Assembly: GCA_947649645.1 (NCBI GenBank)
Contig: CANSSP010000010.1
Location: forward strand, 1-64,000
Length of the DNA: 64,000 nucleotides
Direction of reading: 5' to 3'
DNA from: an uncultured Roseburia sp.
GTDB taxonomy: Bacteria > Bacillota > Clostridia > Lachnospirales > Lachnospiraceae
A program made the position numbers and the translations under genes. Numbering within the stretch: the first letter of the stretch is position 1; each line of letters starts with the position of its first letter. This document shows, in pieces, positions 46,255 through 64,000 of the stretch. The notes under the pieces were generated by a model. The model searched no databases. It saw nothing but the letters and a program-made list of their open reading frames with translations, and was not told where the DNA came from.

Positions 46255-47000
46255 TCAGCTCCCCCGGACCAGATTGTCTGCATGTATGATTCCCCACGCT
46301 TTCCTGCCGAGCTGCTCCCCTCTCGGATAGGCACGCTCATATAGCCTGAGTTTCATTTCAGCCGGAGTCAGATACGGATACCGCTCAAAGGCAAGTGCAA
46401 GAACGCCTGTCACAACAGGAGCTGCCATGGAAGTGCCGCTTTTGATCTGATATCCGCTCCCGCTTGCGGAGCAGCTTGTAATTCCGGTTCCCGGCGCCAG
46501 AATTTCCGGCTTTATAATGCAGCACTCCGTCGGTCCTTTTCCACTGTAACCCCGTCCGAGCCCTCTTCCTCCCCCTTCCGCCATCTCGTCGTCGCTGCTG
46601 CCAACCGTCAGGATCTTGCGCGAAATACCGGGAATCGTGACAGAGTTTTCCCGCGGCCCGTTGTTGCCGGCCGCAGCCACTACCAGAATTCCCCGGTCCC
46701 ACGCTTCATCTACGGCTGCAAGCAGCTCCTGCTGTTCTTTTTCTCCGGCACCCGGAAGCATTCCCACCGATATATTAAGCAGTCTGATATGGTATCTGTC
46801 CCTGTTACGGATAATCCATTCAATCCCCTGCAGCACTTTTGCCGTGCTGCCGTTTCCTTTTTCGTCCAGAACTTTTAACAGTATCACGCCTGCGCGGGGA
46901 GCAACGCCGCTGTAGACGCAGACTCCACGCTGATCACGCGACATCTTTCCGTTTCCTGCAATAATGCCGGATACATGGGTTCCATGCCCGAAACACGATA
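46255..47000 (-). pseudogene. S8 subtilase, C-terminal part cut by the prophage
   Basis: About 250 residues of a subtilisin-like serine protease. The catalytic His is in FGHGTHVSGIIAG, the oxyanion region is in VVAAAGNNGP, and the catalytic Ser is in SGTSMAAPVV. The N-terminal part with the catalytic Asp is missing. The ORF-track TTG start (47013) lies inside the recombinase gene. The conserved sequence begins exactly where the recombinase gene ends, so the gene was split by integration; the other half is expected at the far end of the element, outside the window. As it stands the product would be inactive. Confidence 0.85.
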
Positions 47001-47010
47001 TCAGAACTCC
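46985..47010. other. Putative attL junction of the prophage
   Basis: The recombinase stop codon (47001-47003) and the first conserved subtilase codons (GHGTH, just below 46995) are within a few bases of each other. Large serine recombinases typically lie next to their att site. The crossover core cannot be fixed without the other end. Confidence 0.6.
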
Positions 47011-48593
47011 CAATAAATCGTGATATTCTGCCGTCCCGTGCTTTTGTCTTTCTCACCGATCTCAATCATATCTATAAAATCGTTGACGATCTCATGGGTC
47101 AGTGAATCATATGCCGTATATTCCTGTACCAGTCTGCGGACGTCACTGTGCCGTCCGGCTGCTTTTGTCACAGATAAGATGGCATTTTTTCTTTCGTTTA
47201 ACGACTTTCTCTCTTCTTCAAAATCGCGTATCAGCCGGAAGAAAAGATCATCGTCAATTCGCCGCGCCGCCCGGTCTTCGTACAGGCATCTGATCGATTC
47301 CACGCTGCTTTTGATGGCACACTCCGTTTTTCGCAGTTCCTTTTTCTGATCTGACATCCACTGTCTGTCATCCGTACCCTGCACCAGCTCCACCAGCTTC
47401 TCAGAATACTGCCTTGTTTCCAGCACCTGTTTTACCGTTTCCTGTATCCTTTTTCGCACTGTCTCTTCCACGACAGAATAGCGTATGTTGTGGGACGAGC
47501 ACTCTTTTCCCCTCGACTTGTTTGACAGCTGACACCTAAGATACCAGTCGTCTTTCTTTCCTCTGACACCTCCCGATTTAATCATCGAATGTCCGCAGTC
47601 CGCACACCGGAGTTTTCCGGCAAACAGATGCACTTTTTTCCCGCCGTTGCAGTTTTCGCAGCCGATTCTCCGCCGGGAGCGCATCTTTGCCACTTTAAAA
47701 AAAGTATCGTTGTCGATCACCGGCTCGTGATGATTTTCCGTGACAAACCACTGTTCTCTCGGAACGGCCGTCACCTTTTTGTCTTTATAGCTGACCCTTC
47801 TGCACGTTCCCTGCGCCAGACGGCCGATATAAGTCTCATTTGAAAGAATCCGCTTTACTGTCGTTTCGCTCCAGAGATGATACCTGGCGCCAAGCATATC
47901 CGCTTTTACATTCTGATAAGCAAGTCCCTGCCGCTTTTTATATAACGTAGGATTTAAGATTTTTTCATCTTCCAGGATATGACAGATGGCCTTTACGCTA
48001 TAACCATCCAGAAAAAGAGAATAAATTTTCCGGACCACCCCGGCGGCATACTCGTCGATGACAAATTTATACTTATCGTCCGGGTCCTTTAAATAACCAT
48101 ACGGTGCGAACGGACCAATATACTGTCCCGCTCTCATTTTCTGTTGAAAAACAGCTCTGATATTTTCTGATAAGTCCTCACAATACCACTCGTTTACGAG
48201 TCCGCTGATCTGCCTCGCCTTTTTGTTTTCTCTGTTTTGCGTGTCCACGCCGTCGACAACACCGATAAACCGGATTCCAAGCAAGGGAAAATCGTGGTGC
48301 AGATATTTCTCAACATGTTCCATGTTCCTCGTAAATCTGGACTGCGTTTTAGCAAGTACGACGTTGAACTTTCCAAGCTTTCCATCGCGGATCAGACGTT
48401 TGAAATCCGGCCGGTCATCGTACAGCCCCGAGTAATCATCGTCCGAATAGACACCGGCGATCTGCATTTCATGTCTGAGTGCAAAATCCGTAAGCAGAAG
48501 CCTCTGGTTTATAACACTTTCGCTGTCGTCATTTTTGTCTGCCTTATCGCCATCCTCTTTGCTCAGCCTTAAATACAGCGCCGCTCTGTCCAT
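47001..48593 (-). CDS. large serine recombinase (integrase)
   Basis: 530 aa from the ATG at 48593, which has GGAGG five bases upstream; the ORF-track start at 48617 is a GTG upstream of that site. The resolvase domain has catalytic Ser11 (ALYLRLSKEDGD) and Arg-bearing KTQSRFTRNMEHVE. A recombinase domain follows (FAPYGYLKDPDDKY, KRILSNETYIG), then a zinc ribbon (CENCNGG... CADCGHSM...) and a coiled-coil region, as in TnpX/phiC31-type enzymes. It should integrate and excise the element. Its 3' end touches the interrupted subtilase gene. Confidence 0.93.
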   Translation of the reverse strand: MDRAALYLRLSKEDGDKADKNDDSESVINQRLLLTDFALRHEMQIAGVYSDDDYSGLYDDRPDFKRLIRDGKLGKFNVVLAKTQSRFTRNMEHVEKYLHHDFPLLGIRFIGVVDGVDTQNRENKKARQISGLVNEWYCEDLSENIRAVFQQKMRAGQYIGPFAPYGYLKDPDDKYKFVIDEYAAGVVRKIYSLFLDGYSVKAICHILEDEKILNPTLYKKRQGLAYQNVKADMLGARYHLWSETTVKRILSNETYIGRLAQGTCRRVSYKDKKVTAVPREQWFVTENHHEPVIDNDTFFKVAKMRSRRRIGCENCNGGKKVHLFAGKLRCADCGHSMIKSGGVRGKKDDWYLRCQLSNKSRGKECSSHNIRYSVVEETVRKRIQETVKQVLETRQYSEKLVELVQGTDDRQWMSDQKKELRKTECAIKSSVESIRCLYEDRAARRIDDDLFFRLIRDFEEERKSLNERKNAILSVTKAAGRHSDVRRLVQEYTAYDSLTHEIVNDFIDMIEIGEKDKSTGRQNITIYWEF

Positions 48594-48801
48594 CTTTTCC
48601 TCCGCTTTCGTCCGCACGGGGAAACGCAGTCTTTACGATCTGCTTTTTTATGATTTCAAAGACAATCTCTTCCCTCTTATTGTCCTCTGTCGTCCGATAC
48701 ACGTCTCTTATCATCACCTGCACAGACGTCCTCCGCTTTTCTGACTTTGTTTTATCTTATCGTCAGCGGTTTGTACATTATTCCGTCTTTTTTCCCGACA
48801 T

Positions 48802-50907
48802 TCAGGCCGTCCCCGCCCTTCCCCTATAGCGCAGAAAATCCTGCTTCATAAGACGAAAATTCTGCTCCTGATCAATCAGATATACCGGATCCTTTTCGGC
48901 ATATTCTCTGAGCCAGTCCTCCAGATCTTCATCCACTTTGTATGAATAAATCATCATGGCCAGCATGGACAGACGGTTTCCTTCCTCCAGCAGTCTCGAG
49001 CCGTCCCTGACAGTATTGTGCGTCAGATTTTCCAGCGACTCTGCATAAAAATCCAGATCGCTGTGCAGTTCCCTTCTGTCCATACCCAGATTTCTCGCAA
49101 GAAAAGCTTCCTCATCCGCCCTCTCATCTTCTCCTTCTCTCCCATCCAGACCGAAAAACGCATGCATCAGACTCACCAGACCGTTGATCTTTCCTGCGAC
49201 GACCGTTTTATCTCTTGTATTCTTACTCTTATAGACATCTACAAACGCTTTTCCGTTTACCGTCAATCGTTCGAGAGATTTGTCAACATACAACATAAAC
49301 GCTTTAAACTGTCCGTCCGGAAGGTTTAAACTCTTAAAACGGTCAAACACGGCAAACCAGACAGGAGAATTGGTCACGGTAAACATATTTCTGACTTCTT
49401 TATCCACAAACCCGCACAGCCGGTCGAGACTGTCGCGAAATGATTCAAACATGCCATCCGTGGCATGTTTGCTGACATATGCATACGAATCCTTCACTTC
49501 TTTTTTCCATTCATTCAGAAAATAAATCGCCATAATACTCTCGGCGACAACCTTGTCCACGTCGCCCTTGACCTTATTTCTGCCGGTATATTTTCCATAA
49601 TCATCCTTAAAAAAAGCGTGCTTTTCTGACAGGCATTTTATCTTGTCCGCCACATGGATATCCATTCCCGTAAATCCATACTGATTCTTATTCATTCCCT
49701 CCTGATTGTTGTAATTGCGGATATGATACGCGATCTGTTCATCCGTGCAATTGAAATACGTTGTCACATTGACATTGAATTTTTGAAACCGTTCTTTTAA
49801 AAACGCAGGAAATTCACTGAATTTTTTCCCGATCACATTAAATACCTTTTCTTCAGACAGTGCGTCCCCCGCTTCGTCCAGAAGTATATTTCCATTTCCG
49901 TCATACTGGTATTCCCGGTATGGAATTTCGTAAAATTCGGCGCCCTCCCGCTTTACCACAACCCCGTCCGCGCGAAACAATTCTGAATACGACAGTCTCT
50001 GCAGTCCGTCGATCAGATGGGACTTCTTCCTGCCGTTTATGGTCTGTTCACAGATGACAATCTCCGGAACCGGCTGTCCATTTAAAACTCTGGTAAGAAA
50101 TTTATTTTTCTGCCTCTCTGTCCACTGAAACGGCTTTCTCTGCAGAATATGTTTTTTATTGATCTTTCCGTCCCTCATGTCATCCAGCAGACTGCCCAGA
50201 GGATACTTATCCATTCTGTAATTGTCCGTCACGTCAAGCGGTATGATATCGCGCATCCCTTTCCCCTCCCTATATCGGTTCGACTGTTTTGTAAATAGTA
50301 CCAGGTTTTCATTGAGCCTGGCGTCTTTCATGTGATTGCGGTATTCCTTATCCGTCAGGCCGAGCGCCTCTCTGATCACGGAAACCGGAATCCCCTCCAT
50401 CTTCATCTCGATCATCCTTCTCCCGATCGCGGAGAGACTGCCAAGATACGTCTCAACCCTCTCATCCTGACAGCCGTCCATATGCCGGAACAAAATCTCA
50501 TCCATGTCAGAATCAGACCGCAGTACATCGCCCATTGTCAGACCGTCCGCATCCTCTGCGTCAATCGAAAGATCTGCAATATACTCATTTTTACCGGGAA
50601 GCCGCCCGTCTGCGGATCCCTCTTTCACAATCACAGTCCGCCGTTTCTTTCTGTTGTGGTCTGTCATCTCTTTTCGCACGGAATTGCGGATGACTCCGGA
50701 AATATATTCCATAAATGTCCGCCCTCTTGTCGGATCGTATCTGTCTTTCGCCACGCAGATCTCCAGTCCGGCTCTCGAATAAAAATCGTCGTAATCCTTC
50801 TGCCAGATTCCCCCGAATTTATCCATCTCTCTGTGGCACATCTTTCGCAGCTTCTTCCCATTATCCGAATAAAGTTCCTGTATTGTCTCTTCCATTGTAT
50901 TTTCCAT
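48802..50907 (-). CDS. sigma-70-like domain fused to DUF262 (ParB-like nuclease-family) protein
   Basis: 701 aa from the ATG at 50907. The ORF-track start at 50982 overlaps the -10 of a perfect promoter and cannot be used. The N-terminus resembles sigma region 2: DDFYSRAGLEICVAKDRYDP, then FMEYISGVIRNSVRKEMTDH. A second helical segment (GRRMIEMKMEGIPVSVIREA, LGLTDKEYRNHMKDA) could be region 4. From about residue 220 a DUF262 domain begins: GKINKKHILQRKPFQWTERQ, PEIVICEQ, SHLIDGLQRLSYSELF with the DGxQR motif. Helical C-terminus. DUF262 is the GmrSD/ParB-Srx-like fold used in defence. The fusion suggests a regulator or decoy of transcription. It diverges from the RNA-polymerase-like gene. Confidence 0.75.
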   Translation of the reverse strand: MENTMEETIQELYSDNGKKLRKMCHREMDKFGGIWQKDYDDFYSRAGLEICVAKDRYDPTRGRTFMEYISGVIRNSVRKEMTDHNRKKRRTVIVKEGSADGRLPGKNEYIADLSIDAEDADGLTMGDVLRSDSDMDEILFRHMDGCQDERVETYLGSLSAIGRRMIEMKMEGIPVSVIREALGLTDKEYRNHMKDARLNENLVLFTKQSNRYREGKGMRDIIPLDVTDNYRMDKYPLGSLLDDMRDGKINKKHILQRKPFQWTERQKNKFLTRVLNGQPVPEIVICEQTINGRKKSHLIDGLQRLSYSELFRADGVVVKREGAEFYEIPYREYQYDGNGNILLDEAGDALSEEKVFNVIGKKFSEFPAFLKERFQKFNVNVTTYFNCTDEQIAYHIRNYNNQEGMNKNQYGFTGMDIHVADKIKCLSEKHAFFKDDYGKYTGRNKVKGDVDKVVAESIMAIYFLNEWKKEVKDSYAYVSKHATDGMFESFRDSLDRLCGFVDKEVRNMFTVTNSPVWFAVFDRFKSLNLPDGQFKAFMLYVDKSLERLTVNGKAFVDVYKSKNTRDKTVVAGKINGLVSLMHAFFGLDGREGEDERADEEAFLARNLGMDRRELHSDLDFYAESLENLTHNTVRDGSRLLEEGNRLSMLAMMIYSYKVDEDLEDWLREYAEKDPVYLIDQEQNFRLMKQDFLRYRGRAGTA

Positions 50908-50981: not shown

Positions 50982-51010
50982 ATTATAGAACATTTGTTTG
51001 CATCTGTCAA
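50982..51010 (-). promoter_or_regulatory. Consensus promoter of the sigma/DUF262 gene
   Basis: Minus strand TTGACA (51010-51005), 17-base spacer, TATAAT (50987-50982), a perfect sigma-A promoter. It overlaps one copy of the 13-bp repeat described next. Confidence 0.9.
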
Positions 51011-51040
51011 CATTCTTTTCGAATATATGTTTGCATCCGT
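50995..51040. repeat. Two 13-bp direct repeats, probable operators
   Basis: TGTTTGCATCTGT (50995-51007) and TGTTTGCATCCGT (51028-51040), 33 bases apart (about three helical turns), between the divergent sigma/DUF262 and RNA-polymerase-like genes. The first overlaps the -35 and spacer of the minus-strand promoter. Confidence 0.7.
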
Positions 51041-51140
51041 GTAACTTAAGATTTCTTTTCGTCAGAGTACAGGGGCGGACCGGAAAACGAAAAAGAGAAA
51101 GGAAAAAGAAAAAAGAAAAAAAAGAAAGGATAACAGAACA

Positions 51141-53801
51141 ATGCATGACAGACAATATCATCTGTATTCCCTTGACACGGGACATTTTTACAGCAGCCGT
51201 GAAAAATATTTACACAACATGTACTGCAGATACCGCAGGGAGCTGCCCGGTCTGCAGGAGAAAATCGCGCCGCTCTCCGATATGGACGCCGGTTACGGAC
51301 AATGGACGGATCAAATCCGACACAAAAGAGAAAAGGCAAAGCAGGCCAGAAATAAACTCCTCACCCTTCTCTCCAACAAAACGGCGCAGAACGAAAAAAC
51401 AGACGGTGCAGACCATATCCGCACAATCCGGGAAGACAGCCTGAAAGACACCGATATCATTTCCATGTCTGACTCCGCTTTAAGCCGGATGATCGGCATA
51501 AAGCCGGACCATCTGACAGATGCCCTGATCATCGTCCGGGTGTACTATTTTGCTGTTTTTAAGGATCTTTCTTTCTACGGCTTTCTCTATAAAGGTGAAA
51601 AATATCGCTATTTTACCTCTTCAGCCGGGCAGATCCGCACTAAAAAAGCGTTATTTATCAAAGAAACCGTCTGGAATAAAATCAAAGAAAAAGTAATGTG
51701 TGGCCTGACCATCGATAAAATCAATGCAAAAGGCGGGAACAATGTGAACAGACATCTGGCTTATATGGCCCTGACTAATTCCACGACAGACGAGTGGAGT
51801 GACTTTGACATTGACCGCTCCATCGTCATCGATGATTTTGAAACGAATGTATATGGAACATTTGACTTTGTGGACGAGACCGACTATTCCATCACCCGTA
51901 AAAGCGGTTCTGTCCCCATTCCCCACACAGACGGCGCGGGGATGATCCTGCCGTGCATATCGAAAAAAAATTTTATGTTCCGCGCGCCCTGGATCAAAGG
52001 CCTTCTGGGCGTGTTTGACTTCCGGAAATTTGTAGAGGTCAGCGGCTGTTCTCCCGTCATCACCGACATCTACGGCGCTTCTCATGATATCATTGAAGAA
52101 GACATCCGGATCATTTTCACAAAGAGCCAGTTTAAAATGTACCGATATTACGAATCCTGGGATGAATATAAACATTTTTTTAAAATCTATGGCTGTCACG
52201 CCGGCGTCTGCAACGTCGAAGAAGACCGGATCCGGAACGCAAAAATCAATTACCAGATGCTGCAGACGCTCACCGACATTACCGACGAGGAAATCGACCG
52301 GCTGACCCACAGATCCGCGGAACGGATCCGCAATATCTGCAATTCAAAAGAAACCATGATGGAAACCCTTGGAATCACACCTTACAACACAAATATGACA
52401 CCCTTCCAGCAGGCGGTAAAACAATACCCTGCCCTTCTGGGCGACACGTACACCAAAGATATCTTACGGGAGATAAAAAAGAGCCTTTTGAAAAAATACC
52501 GCAGCGGAAAGCTCGAAGTCAACGGTAAATATACGTTCCTGCTCCCCGATTATTATGCGGCATGTGAACACTGGTTTCAGAAAATCCCCGAGCCGGACGG
52601 ACTTTTACGTGATAAAGAGGTATATTGCCGGCTGTTTCCGCAGCACGAAAAACTTGACTGTCTGAGAAGTCCTCATTTGTATAAAGAACACGCCGTACGC
52701 CGCAACACTGCAAATACGTCTTACGGCACGCGTGCCGGCACAATTGGAGAATGGTTCCTCACGGACGGGCTCTATGCGGGCTCACACGATCTGATCACAA
52801 AAATACTGATGTACGACGTCGACGGCGACAAAGCCCTTGTCGTCGCAGACAAGGATTTTATCGCCATCGCCGAACGCAATATGAACGGGATAGTCCCACT
52901 CTACTATAATATGAGAAAAGCAGAGCCCACAGAGTTAAACAAAAAAAATATTTACGCAGGCCTCACCGCCGCATTTACAGGCGCAAACATCGGCGCTTAC
53001 AGCAACCATATTGCAAAAATATGGAACAGCGACGTTTTTCTGACCGGGTCAGAAGCAGAAAAGCAGGACGCGACGGACTGTGTAAAACGGCTGTGCTGTC
53101 AGAATAACTTTGTGATCGATTACGCCAAAACCCTCTACAAGCCGGAATTTCCGCCCGCAGTAAAAAAACAGGTTTCAAAATATACCACCACAAAACTTCC
53201 CGCCTTCTTTGTATATGCAAAAGACAAAACGCCTTCGCAGGTGACGGCGCCCAACGGGAGTCTTGTCAACCGGATCTGTGACAAAATAAAAGATCATCCG
53301 ATTCGGACGCACAGCATCTGTGCCGGCCCCCTCGAATACCGGAAAATGATGTCGGACCCACAGATCGTCTGCGACAGGACAATTTCAGATCTGTATGACA
53401 GACTGGCCAGACAGTATCGCTATATGTCAAACACAAAAGAGGACAGCAAAGATAATCTGCGTTATCTCGCTGACAAAATCAGGGAAACCTTCCGCGAGCC
53501 GGGGTATTCCGACGAGACAGTCGCCGACATGCTGACGCAATATCTCTATGGCGGAAAAAAACGCTATAAACAACTGCTCTGGTTCTGCTACGGAAACAAT
53601 ATTGTAGAAAATCTTAAAAAAAATACAGATCAGCAAAAAACAAAATACATCCGGTGCCCCGAATGTGGAGAATGGTCTGAAGTCCCCACATCCTCCCGGC
53701 GCAGACGCTGCGAGACATGCGGCACGCTCCACAGAAAAAAAGCAATCTGCGAAAATGCAAAACGATATTATCACACAAAAAAACATTTTTATACAGACTG
53801 A
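51141..53801 (+). CDS. candidate single-subunit double-psi-beta-barrel RNA polymerase (YonO/QDE-1-like)
   Basis: 886 aa, close to the length of SPbeta YonO. The key motif is MYDVDGDKALVV, with D559-V-D561-G-D563 matching the metal-binding DxDGD of the YonO/QDE-1 family of polymerases. Nearby RSPHLYKEHAVRRN and LYAGSHDLITKIL precede it as a conserved-looking block. An earlier segment, PIPHTDGAGMILPCI to WIKGLLGVFDF (about 270-305), may belong to the other barrel. The C-terminus is a zinc ribbon, CPECGEWSEV...CETCGTLHRKK. It would transcribe the late phage genes that follow on the same strand. The assignment rests on motif and length, not a search. A purine-rich leader contains AAAGGA. Confidence 0.6.
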   Translation: MHDRQYHLYSLDTGHFYSSREKYLHNMYCRYRRELPGLQEKIAPLSDMDAGYGQWTDQIRHKREKAKQARNKLLTLLSNKTAQNEKTDGADHIRTIREDSLKDTDIISMSDSALSRMIGIKPDHLTDALIIVRVYYFAVFKDLSFYGFLYKGEKYRYFTSSAGQIRTKKALFIKETVWNKIKEKVMCGLTIDKINAKGGNNVNRHLAYMALTNSTTDEWSDFDIDRSIVIDDFETNVYGTFDFVDETDYSITRKSGSVPIPHTDGAGMILPCISKKNFMFRAPWIKGLLGVFDFRKFVEVSGCSPVITDIYGASHDIIEEDIRIIFTKSQFKMYRYYESWDEYKHFFKIYGCHAGVCNVEEDRIRNAKINYQMLQTLTDITDEEIDRLTHRSAERIRNICNSKETMMETLGITPYNTNMTPFQQAVKQYPALLGDTYTKDILREIKKSLLKKYRSGKLEVNGKYTFLLPDYYAACEHWFQKIPEPDGLLRDKEVYCRLFPQHEKLDCLRSPHLYKEHAVRRNTANTSYGTRAGTIGEWFLTDGLYAGSHDLITKILMYDVDGDKALVVADKDFIAIAERNMNGIVPLYYNMRKAEPTELNKKNIYAGLTAAFTGANIGAYSNHIAKIWNSDVFLTGSEAEKQDATDCVKRLCCQNNFVIDYAKTLYKPEFPPAVKKQVSKYTTTKLPAFFVYAKDKTPSQVTAPNGSLVNRICDKIKDHPIRTHSICAGPLEYRKMMSDPQIVCDRTISDLYDRLARQYRYMSNTKEDSKDNLRYLADKIRETFREPGYSDETVADMLTQYLYGGKKRYKQLLWFCYGNNIVENLKKNTDQQKTKYIRCPECGEWSEVPTSSRRRRCETCGTLHRKKAICENAKRYYHTKKHFYTD

Positions 53802-53937
53802 GCCGTCCGCAAAACACTCGTTGTTTACGGAAGAATCCGAAAATCAAAAAATAAAATCACCCGTAAATAACGGCGGAACATATGTTTGTATAAGGGAAAC
53901 AGGGAAATAAAATACGGATCGGAGGTGAATAACGAAT

Positions 53938-54279
53938 TTGACGCTCACACAGGATACATTGCTGAAAAAAATTGCAGACAGGGAAGGAATAGACGTAACG
54001 ATGGTCAGAAACATATTTAAGTCCGCAGAGGATATTATTTTTGACTGTCTCTCCTCCACCACACCGTCTGAACCGATCAGGATCAAATGCCTGAAAGGCG
54101 TTCAGATCGAGCGGACTTACGTCGAAGAGAAGAAATATTCCAAAGGCATGTTTCAGAACATCGATTGTCCGGAGCACGTAAAAACAAATGCAAAACTGTC
54201 GGATTACTACAACGGACAGATCAACAGAACATTATTCGACAGAGAAACGGAAAACGGTGGCTGTTATGTACAACGATGA
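53938..54279 (+). CDS. HU/IHF-like small phage protein
   Basis: 113 aa from a TTG start with GGAGGTG at good spacing. The order of two helices (QDTLLKKIADREGIDVTMV, FKSAEDIIFDCLSS), strands (EPIRIKCLKGVQIERTYVEE) and a late basic/Asn stretch (KTNAKLSDYYNGQINRT) resembles HU/IHF-family proteins with the arm region. It could bind DNA in the virion or act as a structural chaperone. It is the first small gene after the polymerase-like gene. Confidence 0.5.
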   Translation: MTLTQDTLLKKIADREGIDVTMVRNIFKSAEDIIFDCLSSTTPSEPIRIKCLKGVQIERTYVEEKKYSKGMFQNIDCPEHVKTNAKLSDYYNGQINRTLFDRETENGGCYVQR

Positions 54280-55003
54280 ATTAAAAATATACCGCGGTGA
54301 AGATTTTGCCGTCACAGACGCCATCGCAATCCACCAGCCCACTTTAAATGAAATTGCCGATTACGGCGAGCGGGAATACTATTCCATGATCTGTCAGCTC
54401 ACCGCAACGCCGCAGACCATGAAGGTGCAGTTATGGGATATCGGAATCGACTATACAAAGATCACGCCCTATGAACTGTTCTGCCAGGTAATCTGCCGGC
54501 TATACACACAGGAACAGACTTCCATCCTGTTCGGCGGGCTGGATTTTACCAGATTCCGGATCACACAGTCCGATGCAGACGAGCCCGTACTGCTGCAATT
54601 CGTCCACGGCAGACCCGTTGTCATCGATACGTCTGCTTATCATAAAATAGCAGATTACATAAGAAGCGTGCACGGGCTCACGAAGGATGAACGTCTTCCG
54701 GCAAACGAGACGACAAAGCGGATTCTGATCGAAGACGACAGAGAAGAGCTGGAGCGCTGTAAAAACAGGGAGTATCGCTCCCAGCTAAAAAATCTGATCT
54801 CTTCCATGGTCAACTCGCAGGGGTTTAAGTACAATCATTCCCAGGTCTGGGATATGAAAATTAACGCTTTTATGGATTCCGTAAAAAGGATATCCAGGAT
54901 CAAAAATGCAGAGCTGCTTTTACAGTCCGGCTATTCGGGCTATGGAATCAGTCTGAAAGACATTGACAAAAAACAACTAGACTGGATTGGCGATCTCGAA
55001 TAG
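54266..55003 (+). CDS. phage protein of unknown function (tail region)
   Basis: 245 aa from the ATG at 54266 (GGTGG before it), overlapping the previous gene by 14 bases; the ORF-track start at 54188 lies further inside that gene. Soluble and acidic. The first half is mixed strand and helix (MICQLTATPQTMKVQLWDIG, LFGGLDFTRFRI); the second half is helical and charged (DDREELERCKNREYRSQLKN). No family recognised. Position directly before the tail-tube-like gene suggests a tail assembly or chaperone role, which is inference only. Confidence 0.6.
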   Translation: MYNDELKIYRGEDFAVTDAIAIHQPTLNEIADYGEREYYSMICQLTATPQTMKVQLWDIGIDYTKITPYELFCQVICRLYTQEQTSILFGGLDFTRFRITQSDADEPVLLQFVHGRPVVIDTSAYHKIADYIRSVHGLTKDERLPANETTKRILIEDDREELERCKNREYRSQLKNLISSMVNSQGFKYNHSQVWDMKINAFMDSVKRISRIKNAELLLQSGYSGYGISLKDIDKKQLDWIGDLE

Positions 55004-55036: not shown

Positions 55037-55834
55037 ATGAGCTTTAATCTCAACGAACTTATTCTTGAAAAAATCAGATCTGTCGAAGAGTACGATCCTG
55101 CGACAAACGAACTGACAGGCCTCTATACACAGATAGAGGAGCCCAGCCTTAAGACAAGTGCGGACGCCACGGAAGTAACCGACGCCATGGGCGCTTCGAT
55201 CTATACCATCTATAAAGCCCAGAAAGGTACGTTTGATTTCACAAACTCTCTCTTTTCGCTCGATCTGGCCGCTTCCCAGTATGGCTCCGAAAAGATTGTC
55301 GCAAGCGATACAGACAGGCTTCTCGTTCCCGTATCTGAGGTAATCACCATCGGGGCAGACCACACGGTGGTTTTAAAATATGTTCCCGCAGGCACCGAAG
55401 GCGCAGAGATCCGATCTGTCAGAGTAATAAACCCGGATAATACCTTCGGCGGGATTTACGAGGTGTCCGCTGCGGCCGGCGAAGGAAAGTTTACCTTAAA
55501 CGCCGCGACAAAGACGATCACACTGCCGGACGATGCGACAGGCAGGGTATTCGTAAATTACGAGAAAGAAAGCACACAGGCCGTCCAGGTGACAAAGAAA
55601 ACAGACAGTGTCCCGAAAGTCAAAACACTGGTAATCCACGCCATCTTCCACTCGGTCTGCGATACCAACATCGTATATGCAGGCGTGATACGGTGTCCGA
55701 GAGCGCAGATTGACCCGTCCGGCACAGAGCTTTCTCTTAAATCCGACGGAAAGCACTCCGCTTCTTACATCCTGCAGAAAGATTACTGTTCTGACAGCGG
55801 AAAGCTTTTCGATATCATCATCAGCAAAGACTGA
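55037..55834 (+). CDS. tail-tube-like major structural protein
   Basis: 265 aa with a strong AAAGGAGG site. The N-terminal pattern IRSVEEYDPATNELTGLYTQ followed by KTSADATEVTDAMGASIYTI and GTFDFTNSLFSLDLAASQYG resembles major tail/tube proteins of large clostridial siphophages, in which a type-conversion comparison segment precedes beta-rich sheets. The rest is all-beta with DDATGRVFVNYEKES. An Ig-like insertion is possible. It is most likely an abundant virion structural protein; tube versus another structural class is unproven. Confidence 0.55.
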   Translation: MSFNLNELILEKIRSVEEYDPATNELTGLYTQIEEPSLKTSADATEVTDAMGASIYTIYKAQKGTFDFTNSLFSLDLAASQYGSEKIVASDTDRLLVPVSEVITIGADHTVVLKYVPAGTEGAEIRSVRVINPDNTFGGIYEVSAAAGEGKFTLNAATKTITLPDDATGRVFVNYEKESTQAVQVTKKTDSVPKVKTLVIHAIFHSVCDTNIVYAGVIRCPRAQIDPSGTELSLKSDGKHSASYILQKDYCSDSGKLFDIIISKD

Positions 55835-55836
55835 TC

Positions 55837-56133
55837 ATGGAAGAACAGAACATAAACGCCTACTGCTCGATCTGCGGAAAAGGCTACCATGTCTGCAAGG
55901 CCTGTATGGAACAAAGGGCATTCCGGCCCTGGCGGACCATTGCGGACAGCGCCGCGCACTATCAGATTTATATGGCAATCCACGGGTATACCGTGTCGAA
56001 AGACAAAAAAACTGCCAGAAACGAACTGGAAAAATGCGATCTCAACGGCTGCGAAAACTTCAGGCCCGAGATAAAGGCGGCCATACGCCGCATTTTGTCG
56101 GAAACAGAAGAAAAAGACGGACAGGCAGAATAA
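55837..56133 (+). CDS. small zinc-finger phage protein
   Basis: 98 aa, starting two bases after the tail-tube-like stop codon. CSICGKGYHVCKAC is a C-x2-C...C-x2-C zinc-binding motif; the rest is helical with a Lys/Glu-rich end. Similar small CSICGKGYH proteins occur next to tail-tube genes in gut clostridial phages, as far as I recall. The coding position suggests a tail assembly role. Function unknown. Confidence 0.6.
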   Translation: MEEQNINAYCSICGKGYHVCKACMEQRAFRPWRTIADSAAHYQIYMAIHGYTVSKDKKTARNELEKCDLNGCENFRPEIKAAIRRILSETEEKDGQAE

Positions 56134-56228: not shown

Positions 56229-57224
56229 ATGAGAACATCGAGCAAAGAACGGACACTGCAATGGATTCAGAACCAGTACAAAAAAGGAAATATATCGTTT
56301 TCACACAAACTCCAGCGTCCGATCGGACAGTGGACCCCAAAAATGAAATCTCTTCTGATTCACAGTCTTCTGTCCGGTTTCCCTGTAAATCCCATTTACG
56401 TCGTCGAAGAAAACGGTACCCTTTATACCCTCGACGGCTCACAGAGAACTTCGACGTGCCTTAATTACATAAACAACGAATTTTCGCTGAGCAAAGACAC
56501 TCCCGATATCATAATCGAGAGCAGGGAGAACGGCGAATCCGTCTCCAGAACCTATGAAATCGCCGGCAAAAAATTCGGCAGACTCGACGAGGAAGTGCAG
56601 AACAGCCTCCTCGCATGCAGTCTGGAATTCTGCATGCTGTCCGACTACACAGAACACGAAGTCAGAGAAATGTTCCGTCGTCAGAATGCCGGAAAACCGC
56701 TCAACAGCAGGTTGCTGCGCATTGTAAATGAATCCGATGCATTCAGCGATACCGTGTATTCGCTCGCCACACATCCGTTTATGGATAAGATTGTGACAAA
56801 AATGCAGCGCAAAAACGGAACCGACAGGGATCTGATCATTCAGACACTGATGCTGATTGAGACAAGTCCGGAACAGGAATTTACCTCTTTTCGGACCAGG
56901 GACATCGACGCCTTTGTATCGGAACATTCGGATGCCATCGGCGCCGAAAAAATCGAACTTTTGCGCGACGCGATGACGGCTTTTGACGAGGCTTTTGATC
57001 AGATTAAAATTCCCGTTACATCCATCCCTATGATTCTTTACAGCGGTTATCACATGAAAAAAGATCAAAAAGCCTTTTCCGGCCTTATCGGACCGATTCA
57101 GACTTTTCTGGAGCATTACAACGACAACGAAGAATATAAACAGTATGTCCGGTCCGGCACAGGAAGTGCGGAAAATGTACGCGGGCGCTTTGACTACTGG
57201 AAAAACATTATAAAAACAGCATAG
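56229..57224 (+). CDS. DUF262-family protein (stand-alone)
   Basis: 331 aa. KGNISFSHKLQRPIGQWTPK and MKSLLIHSLLSGFPVNPIYVVEENGTLYTLDGSQRTSTCLNYI show the DUF262 domain with DGSQR. The remaining ~230 residues are helical, without the HNH domain found in complete GmrD-type effectors. It shares the fold with the C-terminal part of the protein at 48802-50907 but is only distantly similar. Gene position inside a tail operon, with its own promoter and a strong terminator, suggests an accessory cargo gene. GGAGGG precedes the ATG. Function unknown; defence or counter-defence is a guess. Confidence 0.75.
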   Translation: MRTSSKERTLQWIQNQYKKGNISFSHKLQRPIGQWTPKMKSLLIHSLLSGFPVNPIYVVEENGTLYTLDGSQRTSTCLNYINNEFSLSKDTPDIIIESRENGESVSRTYEIAGKKFGRLDEEVQNSLLACSLEFCMLSDYTEHEVREMFRRQNAGKPLNSRLLRIVNESDAFSDTVYSLATHPFMDKIVTKMQRKNGTDRDLIIQTLMLIETSPEQEFTSFRTRDIDAFVSEHSDAIGAEKIELLRDAMTAFDEAFDQIKIPVTSIPMILYSGYHMKKDQKAFSGLIGPIQTFLEHYNDNEEYKQYVRSGTGSAENVRGRFDYWKNIIKTA

Positions 57225-57334: not shown

Positions 57335-57619
57335 ATGAAAATAATACAGACACAACAGATCAGACATTACAGACAGGCCATCGGGCAGCTTGTGGCCGAA
57401 AATGAAACACTCCGAAACAGACTGAGACAATACGAAGAAAACGGCTTTTTAAAAGCAGCCGCCAGGACAGTAAAGGCAAAAAACAGATATGAAGCACTCA
57501 TAAAAGAAGCGGCCCGATGCAAAGAAGAATACGAACAGCTCATCAGGGAACAGAAAATAAGAAACAGGGAAGGTGATAAAAATTGGCGAAACGATTATTT
57601 GACTCACAAAATCAGTTAG
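57335..57619 (+). CDS. short coiled-coil phage protein
   Basis: 94 aa, almost entirely helical with heptad-like spacing (IGQLVAENETLRNRLRQYEE, then YEALIKEAARCKEEYEQLIR). It overlaps the following large tail gene by 37 bases in another frame. No family recognised; it may be a small tail scaffold or chaperone. AGGGAG precedes the ATG. Confidence 0.6.
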   Translation: MKIIQTQQIRHYRQAIGQLVAENETLRNRLRQYEENGFLKAAARTVKAKNRYEALIKEAARCKEEYEQLIREQKIRNREGDKNWRNDYLTHKIS

Positions 57620-60600
57620 ACATCCCCACTCTCATCCTTGAGACAAAAAGCGGAGAACGATTTGGCTCCATTGACGGCGTAACCGGACTGACCTATAAAA
57701 AGACGATGGGAGCAGACAGCGTCAGTTTTGTCGTACACAAATACGTCGACGGGATTTTACATCCCCTGTGGGAAGACATCACAGATCTGAAAACTCTTTT
57801 TATCCCGGAATACGGGGAAAAATTTGAAATAAAAATAACATATGAGGACGAAGAATACGAGACGAAATCCGTCAGCGCAGTCTCCCTGTGTGAGGCAGAA
57901 TTGTCACAGATCCTGCTGCGCAATTTTGAAGTCAACACAGAAACCGACATCGCGCGCGACGATTACAGACTGACCGTGTTTTACGATCCCGATCATCCAG
58001 ACGCCTCCCTTCTGCACCGCGTCTTATCGGCAAAGGCGTCCTTTTATCAGATCGGCGAAGTCGATGAAACACTGCGCAGCCTTTCTTTTGAATTTTCCGC
58101 CGACAACACGGACGTCTATCAGTTCCTGACAGATGAAGTCGCAAAGGAGATGCAGTGTATCTTCCTGTTTGACTCAATGACAAGAACCATTCACGTTTAT
58201 GACCTTAACAGCACATGCAACGAATGCTTTCAGACCACCCCCTCAGGACTGTCTGAAAGACATTACCGCGGCGACTTTCATGATATCTGCCCCAATTGCG
58301 GGAGCACAAATATCAGGAATGGTTTCGGTGAGGATACCACTATATTAATCGACAGGGAAAGCATCGCCAGCTCCATCGTTGTCGAAAGCGATGCCGACGC
58401 GCTGAAAAATTGCTTTTATGTCGAAGGCGGAGACGATGTGATGACGGCCGCATTCTGTCTGATCAACCCGAACGGTACACCCTGCCTCTACTATTTTCCG
58501 CCGCGGGAGCTTGACAAAAAAGCTTCGGACCGGATTTACAAATTTCCGGATGAACTGATTGACGCGTTAAACGCATATGATACGGATTACAGGTACTACC
58601 TGACACAACACACCTTCGATCCCTCCCGCTTATCACACATTTATCATCCCGGAACCAATGACTTTACTCCCACCACTTACGATCCGCAAAGCACCGATTT
58701 AAACTATATCACGGCTTACAACGCTGTTGTAGAAAAAATCTCCGGCCTCTCTGACCAGTCTCCCTATCATGACTGCATTCATTATAAAAGTACGCTTACC
58801 TTTAAAGGACAGAGTGCGCTCGTGGCCGCTTATTTTAACTCGGTTGATTTTGAAGCATTCGTACAGACAAAAATGATGCCGGACTGTGAGATGGAAGTCT
58901 GTACCAAGGAGGAAGCCATCCGAAAACTGACCTCCGCCTCACTCGGCACGATCGCCATCGCCGGTTTTGGCAGCGCAACGACCAGAACCGTCGTCGACAA
59001 TGCCGTTCTGATGACCGCAAAGACCATCGTAAACACTGCACTCTTTGATGTCGGAATTGAATCCAGCGTTTATACGGCCGGAAATTCTTCCTGGACCGGC
59101 CGGTTTGTGATCACAGACCGACAGGACGATAATGTCGGCACAAGGACGATTGTCTCACCACAAAACGTGACTTTATCCGTCAACGGAGACATCCCGGCCT
59201 ACTGCAGGGCCCGCATAAAATCGCTCCTCTCAAAAAATGACCTGCCGGCCACAGAGCCTTTGTACGATCTGACCATAACCGACGCGGATTTTAAAAGCCG
59301 GATTGCCCTTTACGGTGCAGATCAGCTTAAAATTCTCTACAACGTGATGTTAAGCTGCCTTGACGTATTGCAGGAACAGCTCGACAAAAGCGGGATCCGG
59401 AAAGAAAACAGTGTAACCGAAGAATTAAAACGATACTACTCCGTCTATCACAGACGCATGGGCGAAATTTCCGCGAAAATATCCGAGAGAGAGGCAGATC
59501 TGAATAGCATATGGCGGTACAAAGCACTGCTCTGCTCCTATCTCGAAACTGTCCGGTCCATCCTCAGCTTTCCGTCCTACCTCGCACAGTACGCTAAAAC
59601 GCACGCACTTTCCGTTGACCTGTGGGAACTTTTTAATCTGCACCGGCGCGAAGAGACTTATCGGAACAGCCATATTATTTCCGATTCCCTAAAGAATAAC
59701 AGCGACATCATACGCCATGCCGGATCTCTTATGGAACTGGCAAAGAGAGAGCTGATTACGGCCGGAACCCTGCAGTATTCCATATCTGCTTCTCTCTCGA
59801 GCCTCCTCGCGCTGACAGAATTTGCTCCGCTCACGGAACACTTTGAAATCGGAAACTGGATCCGGGTCCGCACCGATATCAGGGAAGATACACCGGAGGA
59901 TTCCATTTACCATTTAAGACTCCTCTCCTATCAGATCACATTCGATGACGTCCAGGAAATCGACGTGGAATTTTCTACCGTTACAAAAACCTGGAGCGGT
60001 ATGCAGGATTCCGGCTCCGTTCTGGAATCGATCCAGGGTATCGCCTCTTCCTACGACGGGGTAAAACGACAGACCGACAAAAACAGCGCGGCAGCAGATA
60101 TCGTTGATGACTGGGTCGCAAAGGGCCTTGACATGACAAATCAGAAAATCGTCAACAGCACAGACAGCCAGGCTTTTGTAATTGACGAGCACGGGCTTCT
60201 GGCAAGAAGCTATGATGATCTCACCGATGTGTACGGCCCCTGCCAGCTGAAAATTCTGCACAACGGCCTCTACACAACCCACAACAGCTGGGAAACCGTG
60301 GACGCGGGAATCGGCTCGTTTATTTATTACGATCCGCTAAATCAGTTCCGGGAAACCGTCGGATATGGTCTCATCGCAAAAACAGTCGTCGGCTCACTTA
60401 TCCTGGGGGAAAACCTTGGAATTTACAATAAAACCGGTTCCATGCGTTTCGACGAAGAGGGACTTGTCATCTCAAACGGGAAAAATACGATTTTTATCCG
60501 GCCGGACAAAACGGCATTCGAAATCTGCCGGGGAACCACAAAGCAGTTTTACCTGGACATGGACGGAAATGCGACGTTCCGCGGAACCATCTATGCGGAC

Positions 60601-61773
60601 GCAGGCGAATTTACAGGAACCATAAACGCCGGCTCCACCATCACGGGCTCGCACATTTCCGGAAGCACGATCCGCACAAAAAACAATCTGTTCCATGTCG
60701 CTGAAGACGGCAAAACGACCGTAAAAGATCTGATTGTGACAGATTCCATATATGGACAGTACTCCCACTCCAGTCAGCCGGCAGGAATAGCAGAAATCCT
60801 CCGGTTTGTGAGCACGCCGGCTTATTCCTACGATAAAATCTTTTACAGCGAATCCCTGGATGAATTTGTATCTGTCACAGAAAACTATAAAGGGCCCGCA
60901 AAGGAATCGTCCAGTCTGCAGGTCTGCCCCGATGTATGCTCGTTTGATTCTGTCGCTCTCTTTAAAAATGTCGCCGACTTCAGGCAAAATGTCTTCTTCC
61001 GCTCGACAGCCGCATTTTCCGACGGGGCATCCGTCGGGAAGGCACTGCATGTCAGCGGAAATATTCATACGGACGGCAGCTCCTACACCGGCAGCGATCT
61101 GCATGTCGACGGCAGCCTGATCACACAGGGAGAAGCCCGGCTCCATGGAGATGTTTATTTTCACTCTCTCATCCGTCTGCAGCGGAAAGGCGAACGGCAC
61201 ATCAGCGCCCAGTGGGCCGACGGGAGATACCACACGCTGCTCAGCCTCTATGACGACGGCCTGAAACTGGCGGTGGGATGGACCGGATTGAGCGAAGACG
61301 GGGAAACCTATCCGACTGATCTCGTTTTAAGAGGGCAGACGGTACATGCGCCGTATGCGAGTGGTATGACAGTTACATCCGACGAACGCCTGAAACGCTC
61401 CTTTGAGAGTCTGGACGCCTTTGACGACGTATACATGGACCTGAGACCAGTCTCATTTGAATATGTCAACGGCTCGTCCGGGCGCAGGCACTTCGGCTTC
61501 GGCGCGGGCGCAGTCAGAGAAAATCTTGAAATGCATGGCTTTACAACACAGGATTTTGCCGGGTTTGTACAGATAAGCGAGAAACCCGAAAGCCAGGATT
61601 ACTGTGGAATCGAAGACCCCATGGGACTTATCTACACAGAATTTATCGCCTGGAACACGCACATGATACAGCAGACGCGCAGGGAACTTGACGAACTCCG
61701 TCTGCAGGTAAAAGAACTGTCTGAAAAATACAACAGGCTTCTGCCCGAAAAAACACAGGAGGTGAAACCATAA
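57583..61773 (+). CDS. Tal-like tail protein with internal zinc ribbon and C-terminal S74 chaperone
   Basis: 1396 aa from a TTG start (AAGGTG upstream). The first ~380 residues resemble the prophage tail/Tal N-terminal hub fold (beta-rich; DIARDDYRLTVFYDPDHPDA, FLTDEVAKEMQCIFLFDSMT). A zinc-ribbon-like insert (CNECFQTT... CPNCGSTN) sits about residue 207-245. Long helical and beta-solenoid segments follow (GTIYADAGEFTGTINAGST). The C-terminus is a peptidase S74 intramolecular chaperone (TSDERLKRSFESLDAF, RPVSFEYVNG, FGFGAGAVRENL) and a terminal coiled coil. It likely forms the tail-tip fibre/spike that contacts the host surface. S74 domains normally self-cleave. Confidence 0.85.
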   Translation: MAKRLFDSQNQLDIPTLILETKSGERFGSIDGVTGLTYKKTMGADSVSFVVHKYVDGILHPLWEDITDLKTLFIPEYGEKFEIKITYEDEEYETKSVSAVSLCEAELSQILLRNFEVNTETDIARDDYRLTVFYDPDHPDASLLHRVLSAKASFYQIGEVDETLRSLSFEFSADNTDVYQFLTDEVAKEMQCIFLFDSMTRTIHVYDLNSTCNECFQTTPSGLSERHYRGDFHDICPNCGSTNIRNGFGEDTTILIDRESIASSIVVESDADALKNCFYVEGGDDVMTAAFCLINPNGTPCLYYFPPRELDKKASDRIYKFPDELIDALNAYDTDYRYYLTQHTFDPSRLSHIYHPGTNDFTPTTYDPQSTDLNYITAYNAVVEKISGLSDQSPYHDCIHYKSTLTFKGQSALVAAYFNSVDFEAFVQTKMMPDCEMEVCTKEEAIRKLTSASLGTIAIAGFGSATTRTVVDNAVLMTAKTIVNTALFDVGIESSVYTAGNSSWTGRFVITDRQDDNVGTRTIVSPQNVTLSVNGDIPAYCRARIKSLLSKNDLPATEPLYDLTITDADFKSRIALYGADQLKILYNVMLSCLDVLQEQLDKSGIRKENSVTEELKRYYSVYHRRMGEISAKISEREADLNSIWRYKALLCSYLETVRSILSFPSYLAQYAKTHALSVDLWELFNLHRREETYRNSHIISDSLKNNSDIIRHAGSLMELAKRELITAGTLQYSISASLSSLLALTEFAPLTEHFEIGNWIRVRTDIREDTPEDSIYHLRLLSYQITFDDVQEIDVEFSTVTKTWSGMQDSGSVLESIQGIASSYDGVKRQTDKNSAAADIVDDWVAKGLDMTNQKIVNSTDSQAFVIDEHGLLARSYDDLTDVYGPCQLKILHNGLYTTHNSWETVDAGIGSFIYYDPLNQFRETVGYGLIAKTVVGSLILGENLGIYNKTGSMRFDEEGLVISNGKNTIFIRPDKTAFEICRGTTKQFYLDMDGNATFRGTIYADAGEFTGTINAGSTITGSHISGSTIRTKNNLFHVAEDGKTTVKDLIVTDSIYGQYSHSSQPAGIAEILRFVSTPAYSYDKIFYSESLDEFVSVTENYKGPAKESSSLQVCPDVCSFDSVALFKNVADFRQNVFFRSTAAFSDGASVGKALHVSGNIHTDGSSYTGSDLHVDGSLITQGEARLHGDVYFHSLIRLQRKGERHISAQWADGRYHTLLSLYDDGLKLAVGWTGLSEDGETYPTDLVLRGQTVHAPYASGMTVTSDERLKRSFESLDAFDDVYMDLRPVSFEYVNGSSGRRHFGFGAGAVRENLEMHGFTTQDFAGFVQISEKPESQDYCGIEDPMGLIYTEFIAWNTHMIQQTRRELDELRLQVKELSEKYNRLLPEKTQEVKP

Positions 61774-61774
61774 C

Positions 61775-62590
61775 ATGTATGCATTTGATTTTGAATATGA
61801 CGGATATGCGCTTTCCGATTTCGGAATGATGATCTGCGCATTTCAGTCATCCGATCTGGAAACGGTATCCTCCGGAGCCGATCTGTCTTTTCAGGTCATA
61901 AAACCGACCGGTTCTGATAAATTCCGGTTTTACGGCTCAAAATACGAAGAATCTTACTCCGCCACAATCCAGATCTGCAAATCGCCATGCGGCGATACCG
62001 GACTGTATCTTGAACCGTCCGAAATTTCCGCCCTGCAGCGCTGGCTATGCAGAAAAGACGGCTATCACCCGTTTCACGTCATACAGGACGACTTAAAAGA
62101 TCTCTTCTGGAACGCGACCTTTACCTGCCGGCAGCTCCTCTTTAAGGGACAGGCCGCAGGGCTTGAACTGACACTGTACACAGACGCGCCTTACGCGTAC
62201 CTGAAATCAGAACCGCTCTTTTACTCCCTTACTCCCGGCGAGAGCTTCTCCGTTTTCGACCAGTCGGACGAAACGGGAAGCATTTACCCGACCGTCGAGA
62301 TTTTATGTAAAGGGCAGGGCGACATCCGGCTTACAAACAGCCTGGACCGGAAAATCCTGACATTGACTTCTCTGTCATACAATGAACGGATTACGCTGGA
62401 CGGAGAGCATAAAATCATAACGTCCTCCCTTCAGAGAAAAGACCTGCCGGACCATTTTAATTTCTATTTTCCCAGAATCCGCAACACATTCCAGGAACGC
62501 GAAAATATTTTTACACTGACAAGGAATGACAGAGCCATTCCCTGCGATATTACCTTTCACTATCATCCGATCGTAAAAATCGGACTGTAG
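61775..62590 (+). CDS. Dit-like distal tail protein
   Basis: 271 aa starting one base after the Tal-like stop. YAFDFEYDGYALSDFGMMIC is the characteristic N-terminal belt pattern of Dit/phage-tail-family proteins, and the C-terminal beta domain ends with DITFHYHPIVKIGL. It forms the ring linking tail tube and baseplate. In most siphophages Dit lies before Tal; here the order is reversed. ACAGGAGG precedes the start. Confidence 0.78.
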   Translation: MYAFDFEYDGYALSDFGMMICAFQSSDLETVSSGADLSFQVIKPTGSDKFRFYGSKYEESYSATIQICKSPCGDTGLYLEPSEISALQRWLCRKDGYHPFHVIQDDLKDLFWNATFTCRQLLFKGQAAGLELTLYTDAPYAYLKSEPLFYSLTPGESFSVFDQSDETGSIYPTVEILCKGQGDIRLTNSLDRKILTLTSLSYNERITLDGEHKIITSSLQRKDLPDHFNFYFPRIRNTFQERENIFTLTRNDRAIPCDITFHYHPIVKIGL

Positions 62591-62627: not shown

Positions 62628-64000
62628 ATGTCAGTCATACAATATAAACTAAACTTAGATTTGCGCAGAAACGTCCACCAGGTACTTGTAATGAAAGAAG
62701 GCGACGTCAACGCAAGGGAAATCTGCATCACCGTCACCGACAATGGGAAAGTTTTCAATCTGGACGGTTACTCCGCCGACTGTAAATGGAAAAAACCGGA
62801 CGGAACCTATGTATTTAACACCTGCCCCGCCAGACAGGGACAGCTCTATATCTTATGTACCAGACAGATGCTTGCCGTTTCCGGCATCGCCAGAGTGGAA
62901 ATCGTCCTCTACCGTGATATCAACACCGAAAACCAGGACAAAAACGTAATCTCCACCATGAAATTTCACGTCAGTGTCAACCCGTCCGTCGTCTGCGATA
63001 AAGACATCGAATCGTCAGACGAATTCGGCGCACTCACGGAAATTATGCTCAAAAACAAACAGCTCGCAAAATCCCTGGAAGAACTAATGGAGGACAGCAC
63101 GCTTGTACACACCAGTGACCTGGGCGTCCCGGGCGGCGTTGCAACGTTAAACGAAAGTGGAACCATCCCCTCTGCGCAGCTCCCTTCCTACGTCGACGAC
63201 GTAAAAGACGGTCATGCCGTTCACGTCATGGTCGACGATACGACCGGTTCCAGAACAGCCTCGGAATTTATTTTTACAGGAGAAAGCGAGCCCTGTGTCC
63301 CCGAAACAGACAAAATCTATATCGATATTGACGAGGGCATCACCTACCGCTGGTCGGGAACCATCTTTGTCAGCATCGGCTCTCCGCTCTCACTGGGCAC
63401 CACCTCTTCCATGGCCTTCCCCGGCGACAGAGGACTTTCCCTCGAACAGGCTGTCCAGGACCTATCCAGCCCCGCGACCTGGCAGAAAAACGGCCTCTTA
63501 TCGTCGGAGGATAAAAAGCGGATCGATAACTATGCCAATCTGAGAGAAATAAGGATCACCCTCCCTGCCGCATCCTGGTACGGGACGGCCGCCCCGTACA
63601 CACAGGCCATAGAAACCGAAGATCTCTCCGTTTACAATAACTGCAGCATTGAAATGGACACCGACGCGACTTACGCCCAGACAACCGCAGCCGCAGATGC
63701 AAAAATTAACAGGATTACATATGAAAATGGTCAGCTTAGCTTCTCTGCGGACGGTACAAAGCCATCCGTGGATCTCCCGCTCCTTCTCTGCGTCGGGACA
63801 AGCATAAATATCGTCAGCGTACCGGCCTGTTTTGAAGAAATGATTCACCCCGGAATGATCGCAAACAATGACGCAACGGAAGAGGAAGGTTTTGTGGCAG
63901 ATGCAAGAATCGTGAAAGTACACGGGGATGAGATTGATGCGGTTCATGATTCCATTGTTTCGCTGAACAATAATCTGACAAACATCGACACATCTGTCAA
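62628..64000 (+). CDS. BppU-like baseplate protein, partial (runs off the window)
   Basis: At least 457 residues from the ATG at 62628 (AAGGAGGT upstream); absent from the ORF track because it has no stop in the window. QYKLNLDLRRNVHQVLVMKE followed by GYSADCKWKKPDGTYVFNTC and ARVEIVLYRD is the BppU N-terminal beta domain found in baseplate upper proteins of Firmicutes phages. A coiled region (LTEIMLKNKQLAKSLEEL), a carbohydrate-fibre-like region and a tail-fibre-type N-terminal phage motif (SVPGGVATLNESGTIPSAQL-type linker) follow. It probably carries receptor-binding parts toward its missing C-terminus. Confidence 0.8.
   Translation, partial: MSVIQYKLNLDLRRNVHQVLVMKEGDVNAREICITVTDNGKVFNLDGYSADCKWKKPDGTYVFNTCPARQGQLYILCTRQMLAVSGIARVEIVLYRDINTENQDKNVISTMKFHVSVNPSVVCDKDIESSDEFGALTEIMLKNKQLAKSLEELMEDSTLVHTSDLGVPGGVATLNESGTIPSAQLPSYVDDVKDGHAVHVMVDDTTGSRTASEFIFTGESEPCVPETDKIYIDIDEGITYRWSGTIFVSIGSPLSLGTTSSMAFPGDRGLSLEQAVQDLSSPATWQKNGLLSSEDKKRIDNYANLREIRITLPAASWYGTAAPYTQAIETEDLSVYNNCSIEMDTDATYAQTTAAADAKINRITYENGQLSFSADGTKPSVDLPLLLCVGTSINIVSVPACFEEMIHPGMIANNDATEEEGFVADARIVKVHGDEIDAVHDSIVSLNNNLTNIDTSV

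Follow-up and report, generated by a model that had tools for sequence, protein, structure and literature searches.

The window, a stretch of 64 000 nucleotides from the start of a contig of an uncultured Roseburia sp., encodes an 886-aa protein that is almost certainly a single-subunit DNA-dependent RNA polymerase of the YonO type, with double-psi-beta-barrel architecture, its polymerase activity being assigned by homology. The protein is a further member of the already known YonO family; what is new is its setting, a tail island that combines an SOS promoter, a sigma gene and yonO. As the best overall explanation, we consider it fairly likely that this polymerase belongs to an SOS-triggered, tail-only element, where it takes part in a cascade from the sigma factor through host RNA polymerase to YonO.

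The polymerase gene and its predicted fold

The gene and the two motifs of its product are located as follows.

51141-53801, plus strand: yonO homologue, an 886-aa ORF assigned by homology to the YonO family of single-subunit DNA-dependent RNA polymerases
52815-52829, plus strand: DVDGD motif (residues 559-563)
about 53655-53720, plus strand: zinc ribbon (C839, C842, C857, C860)

The protein matches PHROG 8308 (E = 9.5e-247) and shares 42% identity over 97% of its length with YonO of SPbeta (SPBc2); 37 phage records were matched by tblastn, SPBc2 yonO among them. A chance resemblance is excluded by these matches. In an alignment of 53 relatives, residues D559, D561, G562 and D563 are invariant and the four cysteines are at least 90% conserved, which confirms the DxDGD signature and the C-terminal zinc ribbon of the original prediction. 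YonO is a processive DNA-dependent RNA polymerase required for the late genes of SPbeta, and its aspartate triad mutant (3D>3N) is inactive (PMC5467207). In the alignment, the DVDGD motif shares its columns with this catalytic triad, DNDGD in YonO. No RdRP match was found in Pfam with the 886-aa protein alone, nor any match in a PDB sequence search with it; the Pfam family RdRP (PF05183) is matched by 38 of the 53 relatives, at best with 8.7e-16.

The AlphaFold model of the protein (pLDDT 90.5, pTM 0.86) was compared with the PDB by Foldseek. The sole significant matches are to RDR2, of the QDE-1 class (best E = 1.3e-17, maize RDR2), with 13% identity and a TM-score of about 0.5. In the predicted structure, the overall match to RDR2 extends over approximately 820 columns and would thus take in two double-psi-barrel domains. 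The column-exact alignment with the YonO triad and the RDR2-like predicted fold together support the proposed kinship with both YonO and QDE-1.

An enzyme acting on RNA, as RDR2 and QDE-1 do, would agree with these structural matches, with the RdRP matches of the relatives and with deposited phage annotations that read RNA-dependent RNA polymerase. It is nevertheless extremely improbable that the protein is not DNA-dependent, since its closest tested relative is YonO (42% identity over 97%), an enzyme with a strong preference for DNA templates (PMC5467207).

The carrier element and its relatives

The YonO element extends from about 46972 to 65486 on contig C10 (101,775 bases), that is, over 18.5 kb and beyond the end of the window. 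This span was deduced from the splitting of a host subtilase gene, which is found on the contig as three collinear pieces when the intact subtilase of the related genome G015 is used in tblastn: codons 1-31 at 69205-69113, about 22-65 at 65600-65469, and those from approximately 60 on at 46989-46261. The repeats that bound the element follow the pattern TACATGGGT[T/A]CC[A/G]TGCCC. The same subtilase gene carries a second insertion of about 3.5 kb (contig C10, 65.6-69.1 kb), with two tandem large serine recombinases and a small ORF. The boundaries and the genes other than yonO and its divergent neighbour are listed below.

46255-46989, minus strand: host subtilase, 3' part, codons from about 60 (tblastn of the intact G015 subtilase)
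46972-46989: left att-like repeat TACATGGGTTCCATGCCC, bounding the 18.5-kb element
contig 65469-65486, beyond the window: right att-like repeat TACATGGGTACCGTGCCC, partner of the left one
47001-48617, minus strand: large serine recombinase, presumed integrase (Pfam Recombinase 5e-24, Resolvase 3e-19; phrog_95 integrase 2.5e-94)
53938-54279, plus strand: small protein in the HU/YonN position after yonO, of a family conserved in island relatives; no Pfam match
54266-55003, plus strand: tail protein of a family shared with SPbeta yomV (phrog_4051 1e-15; the HMM also matches SPBc2 36989)
55037-55834, plus strand: probable tail tube protein, SPbeta yomU family (the family HMM matches SPBc2 37742)
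55837-56133, plus strand: small Cys-rich protein, conserved after the tube gene in relatives
56229-57224, plus strand: second DUF262 (GmrSD_N) gene (Pfam 4e-12)
57583-61773, plus strand: large tail-tip protein with an S74 endosialidase chaperone (Pfam domain; phrog minor tail protein)
61775-62590, plus strand: distal tail protein (Dit, DUF6558; Pfam 2e-33; phrog_33)
62628-64000, continuing to contig 64307, plus strand: BppU-type baseplate/fibre protein (BppU_N 4e-12)

As predicted, structural genes run on the plus strand after the polymerase gene, and they are tail genes; the element as a whole contains tail-tip, Dit, BppU and fibre genes besides those of the yomV and yomU families. An HU-like gene also follows yonO in SPBc2 (yonN) and Perkons, and the G015 homologue of the probable tube protein is assigned to phrog_2729 (virion structural). 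Within the 18.5 kb, we saw no gene for a terminase, portal, capsid, tape measure, holin or lysin, nor any replication gene. The carrier is thus very probably a tail-only element, for which the term 'prophage' of the original prediction is too strong; late transcription 'as in SPbeta' therefore applies to it by analogy only.

A LexA-like box, GGAACATATGTTTG, lies between yonO and the HU-like gene (53877-53890). The second DUF262 gene is 82% identical to its G015 copy (C19:39659-40654), which interrupts a tape-measure gene; other genes of the two islands are about 40% identical, and the difference suggests recent mobility of this gene.

About 100 YonO loci were collected from homology searches; in viral contigs, 80 loci were recovered with an alignment as query and none with a single sequence. 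The loci show two layouts. In complete SPbeta-like phages, yonO is followed by genes of the yonJ, yonG, terminase and portal types. In tail-only loci, yonO, often with an HU gene, is followed by genes of the yomV/yomU type and then commonly by NifS-like, lysin, holin, tape-measure and tip genes. There are about 28 related tail-only loci in Lachnospiraceae, an approximate count because many of them are cut by contig ends. Tube, tape-measure, tip and lysis genes without head genes are present in the relatives G015, G290 and G327, and the islands of the latter two (28 and 30 kb, respectively) are flanked on both sides by host genes. Head HMMs gave no match in 11 tail-only loci having more than 20 kb after yonO and were positive in five of five reference phages (SPBc2, Perkons, G445, G437 and G235); head types unlike those modelled could escape them, and the searched genomes are mostly draft assemblies or contigs. 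The product of the intact relatives is probably an F-type tailocin.

The same genes could be the leftovers of a complete phage, the element being an ordinary decaying SPbeta-like prophage in which nothing special is selected. Such a reading would account for the serine integrase of the window element, for its lack of tape-measure and lysis genes and for the nested recombinase element after it; in the complete YonO phages G445, G437 and G235, moreover, head genes lie between yonO and the same tail genes. We nevertheless regard it as unlikely. The yonO ORF of the window is intact, and many Lachnospiraceae have this layout without a head, in which the genes for YonO, sigma-DUF262, lysis, tape measure and tail tip are intact. 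Independent decay would not be expected to spare, again and again, the polymerase together with the SOS promoter and a gene set limited to tails.

For the origin of the tail-only element, we propose descent from, or gene exchange with, SPbeta-like YonO phages that lost the head and packaging module. Island and phage labels are mixed in the YonO tree, with 14 changes for three labels versus 24 for shuffles. At least 5-7 changes per label fall on supported branches, although long branches make the details unsure. This mixing implies that YonO polymerases passed from phages to islands, or the reverse, on more than one occasion. A single origin of island YonO was rejected on the same count of supported label changes, in a tree with long branches.

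Other features of the tail islands concern the genes downstream of yonO. A NifS-like class-V aminotransferase (PF00266, phrog_12787) is regular in them (L026:14447-15634, L007, L008, L009, L041). The tape-measure genes of several islands are split by inserts (G015 C19 (L026/L028), G327 C1, G453 C10, G293 C10 and G345 C1), which carry minus-strand zinc-ribbon ORFs or a DUF262 gene; the N-terminal piece is sometimes duplicated. Group I introns were considered as the cause of the splitting and rejected, as there was no Rfam match.

Compared with the island of G015, the window element lacks the NifS-like, lysin, holin, 170-aa and tape-measure genes. The window copy may be decayed, because it has no tape-measure, holin or lysin gene and because the motif upstream of its yonO (see below) is degenerate; that it is still functional is doubtful. 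An orphan gene for a 2465-aa tape-measure protein lies between host genes on another contig of the source genome (G000:C1:143169-150566, L186). It is preceded by the promoter-like sequence TTGACA-N17-TACTAT and an exact LexA box, GAACATAAGTTC. Among the genomes of the same genus that were tested, relatives of the tape-measure gene were found in all four that have a YonO island and in none of the six that lack one. The orphan gene may serve the island or may reflect an assembly error.

The divergent sigma gene and the region upstream of yonO

The gene that diverges from yonO belongs to the sigma-70 family, and its features, with those of the intergenic region, are as follows.

48802-50907, minus strand: sigma-70-like factor fused to DUF262/GmrSD_N (GmrSD_N 4e-9); likely start ATG 50907, about 701 aa
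50982-51010, minus strand: predicted sigma-DUF262 promoter, TTGACA-N17-TATAAT, with a LexA-like box in the spacer
50988-50999, minus strand: LexA-like box GAACATTTGTTT, inside the promoter spacer
51021-51032: second LexA-like box GAATATATGTTT, weaker than the first and 33 bp from it; relatives likewise have paired boxes, at a distance of about 32 bp
51090-51107, plus strand: degenerate match to AAAnnnAGAAnTAnnTAT, weak in the window copy

The ORF opens at 50982 (726 aa). The sigma-like domain that had been noted in it is a sigma region 2. Both regions 2 and 4 are found in the family, with Sigma70_r2 in 24 of 26 members and Sigma70_r4_2 in 11 of 26. The family matches the SigH structure with E = 5e-8, and ECF sigma factors top the Foldseek list, the best E being only 2.4e-3. 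Sigma and DUF262 (GmrSD_N) genes diverge from yonO in 18 of the approximately 28 tail-only loci, either as a pair (a sigma ORF of about 190 aa and a DUF262 ORF of about 470 aa) or as a fusion such as the single ORF of the window. No adjacent sigma pair is found in the other 10; half of these sigma-less loci have instead, beside yonO and divergent from it, a member of the SPBc2 yopR (MrpR master repressor) family (G417, G214, G388, G353 and L077). When the sigma gene was searched independently in viral contigs, every untruncated copy had DUF262 nearby or fused, and a YonO relative was also encoded in 16 of the 22 sigma records (10 of the 11 of at least 95 kb). DUF262 is possibly a regulator, or a nuclease, acting on the sigma factor or on host transcription.

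A sigma promoter with a LexA box in its spacer is seen in most sigma-bearing tail-only loci. Of the 18 sigma promoter regions, 13 contain the exact box GAACN4GTTC, against a mean of 0.05 and a maximum of 1 in dinucleotide shuffles, and 10 contain two boxes of no more than one mismatch (shuffled mean 0.08). The two boxes of the window have one and two mismatches, and the 14-mer AGAACATTTGTTTG at its sigma promoter is identical to one upstream of host lexA. No tandem pair of exact LexA boxes was found in the host genome. These motifs make it highly probable that the sigma gene is under LexA control.

Upstream of yonO, Gibbs sampling of 14 regions, each extending from the sigma promoter to the first plus-strand gene, identified the motif AAAnnnAGAAnTAnnTAT, of AGAA type (LLR 176 versus 138 +/- 4 for shuffled regions). 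No above-threshold site is present in the window. The island-derived matrix gave 16 sites of at least 17 bits in the sigma-bearing YonO phages (about 380 kb) and two in the sigma-less ones (about 367 kb), a set of three phages that differs in base composition; some hits may be ribosome-binding sites, which the A-rich motif partly resembles. Several phage sigma genes, too, are preceded by such sites, at distances of 28-166 bases. An earlier matrix drawn up by eye was dropped as unspecific genome-wide. The AGAA element as the promoter of YonO itself is disfavoured, since most strong sites precede yonO instead of lying in the late region, and sigma-less YonO phages show no enrichment of them. It fits better as the target promoter of the sigma factor, which probably acts on yonO through host RNA polymerase.

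The sigma-DUF262 protein might instead be a direct initiation factor of YonO. The pair adjoins or co-occurs with YonO, and the published work on YonO leaves open a dependence on some additional factor to recognise promoters (PMC5467207). We judge this quite improbable, because no such sigma is encoded by SPbeta or Perkons, because YonO lacks most domains of multisubunit RNA polymerases (PMC5467207), and because, in sigma-bearing phages, the AGAA motif mostly precedes yonO and sigma genes instead of lying in the late region, a position that better suits a middle role with host RNA polymerase. As no sigma counterpart was found in SPBc2 or Perkons, YonO has no general need of one. Still bolder, and very improbable, is the combined proposal that sigma-DUF262 is a dedicated initiation factor, forming a two-component holoenzyme with YonO, and that the islands are widespread self-transcribing, SOS-triggered tailocins.

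Proposed working and comparison with known systems

In the cascade that we favour, with host RNA polymerase as the partner of the sigma factor, DNA damage would inactivate LexA and its release would derepress the divergent sigma-DUF262 gene; sequence evidence underlies these two steps. The sigma factor would direct host RNA polymerase to the AGAA-type promoter upstream of yonO, and YonO would then transcribe the downstream tail genes, together with any lysis genes. The probable end product of the cascade in intact relatives would be an F-type tailocin. We infer the action of the sigma factor on yonO with host RNA polymerase, the reading of these tail genes by YonO and the tailocin product. The independence from host RNA polymerase that had been predicted for late transcription is accordingly plausible for the late step only, activation of yonO being most likely due to the host enzyme.

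Like SPbeta (NC_001884, SPBc2), the window element has a YonO with the aspartate triad, an HU-like gene next to it and tail genes of the yomV and yomU families downstream, and it is a serine-integrase element inserted within a host gene, just as SPbeta is inserted within spsM (PMC8270828). Unlike SPbeta, it has no yonJ, yonG, terminase or portal gene after yonO, and a sigma-DUF262 gene under predicted LexA control diverges from its yonO. The predicted fold and the DxDGD motif are shared with QDE-1 and RDR2, which serve RNA silencing in eukaryotes. Flexible-tail genes, holin and lysin without a head are common to the intact relatives and to F-type tailocins such as rhizoviticin (PMC10811719), whereas tape-measure and lysis genes are missing from the window copy. 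In the open-access literature, we found no description of a tailocin with its own RNA polymerase and no paper linking YonO to tailocins or to a sigma partner.

YonO-family genes on Firmicutes chromosomes were already described by Forrest et al. (2017, PMC5467207), who left open how YonO finds promoters and what the chromosomal YonO-like polymerases do; here, many such genes belong to tail-only islands, where a sigma partner or a YopR-like gene accompanies them. The sigma-DUF262 pair, the promoter with its predicted LexA control and the conserved element upstream of yonO provide named parts for the promoter question. If the islands make tailocins, these would be the first known to us that are run by their own RNA polymerase, and in a dominant gut family.
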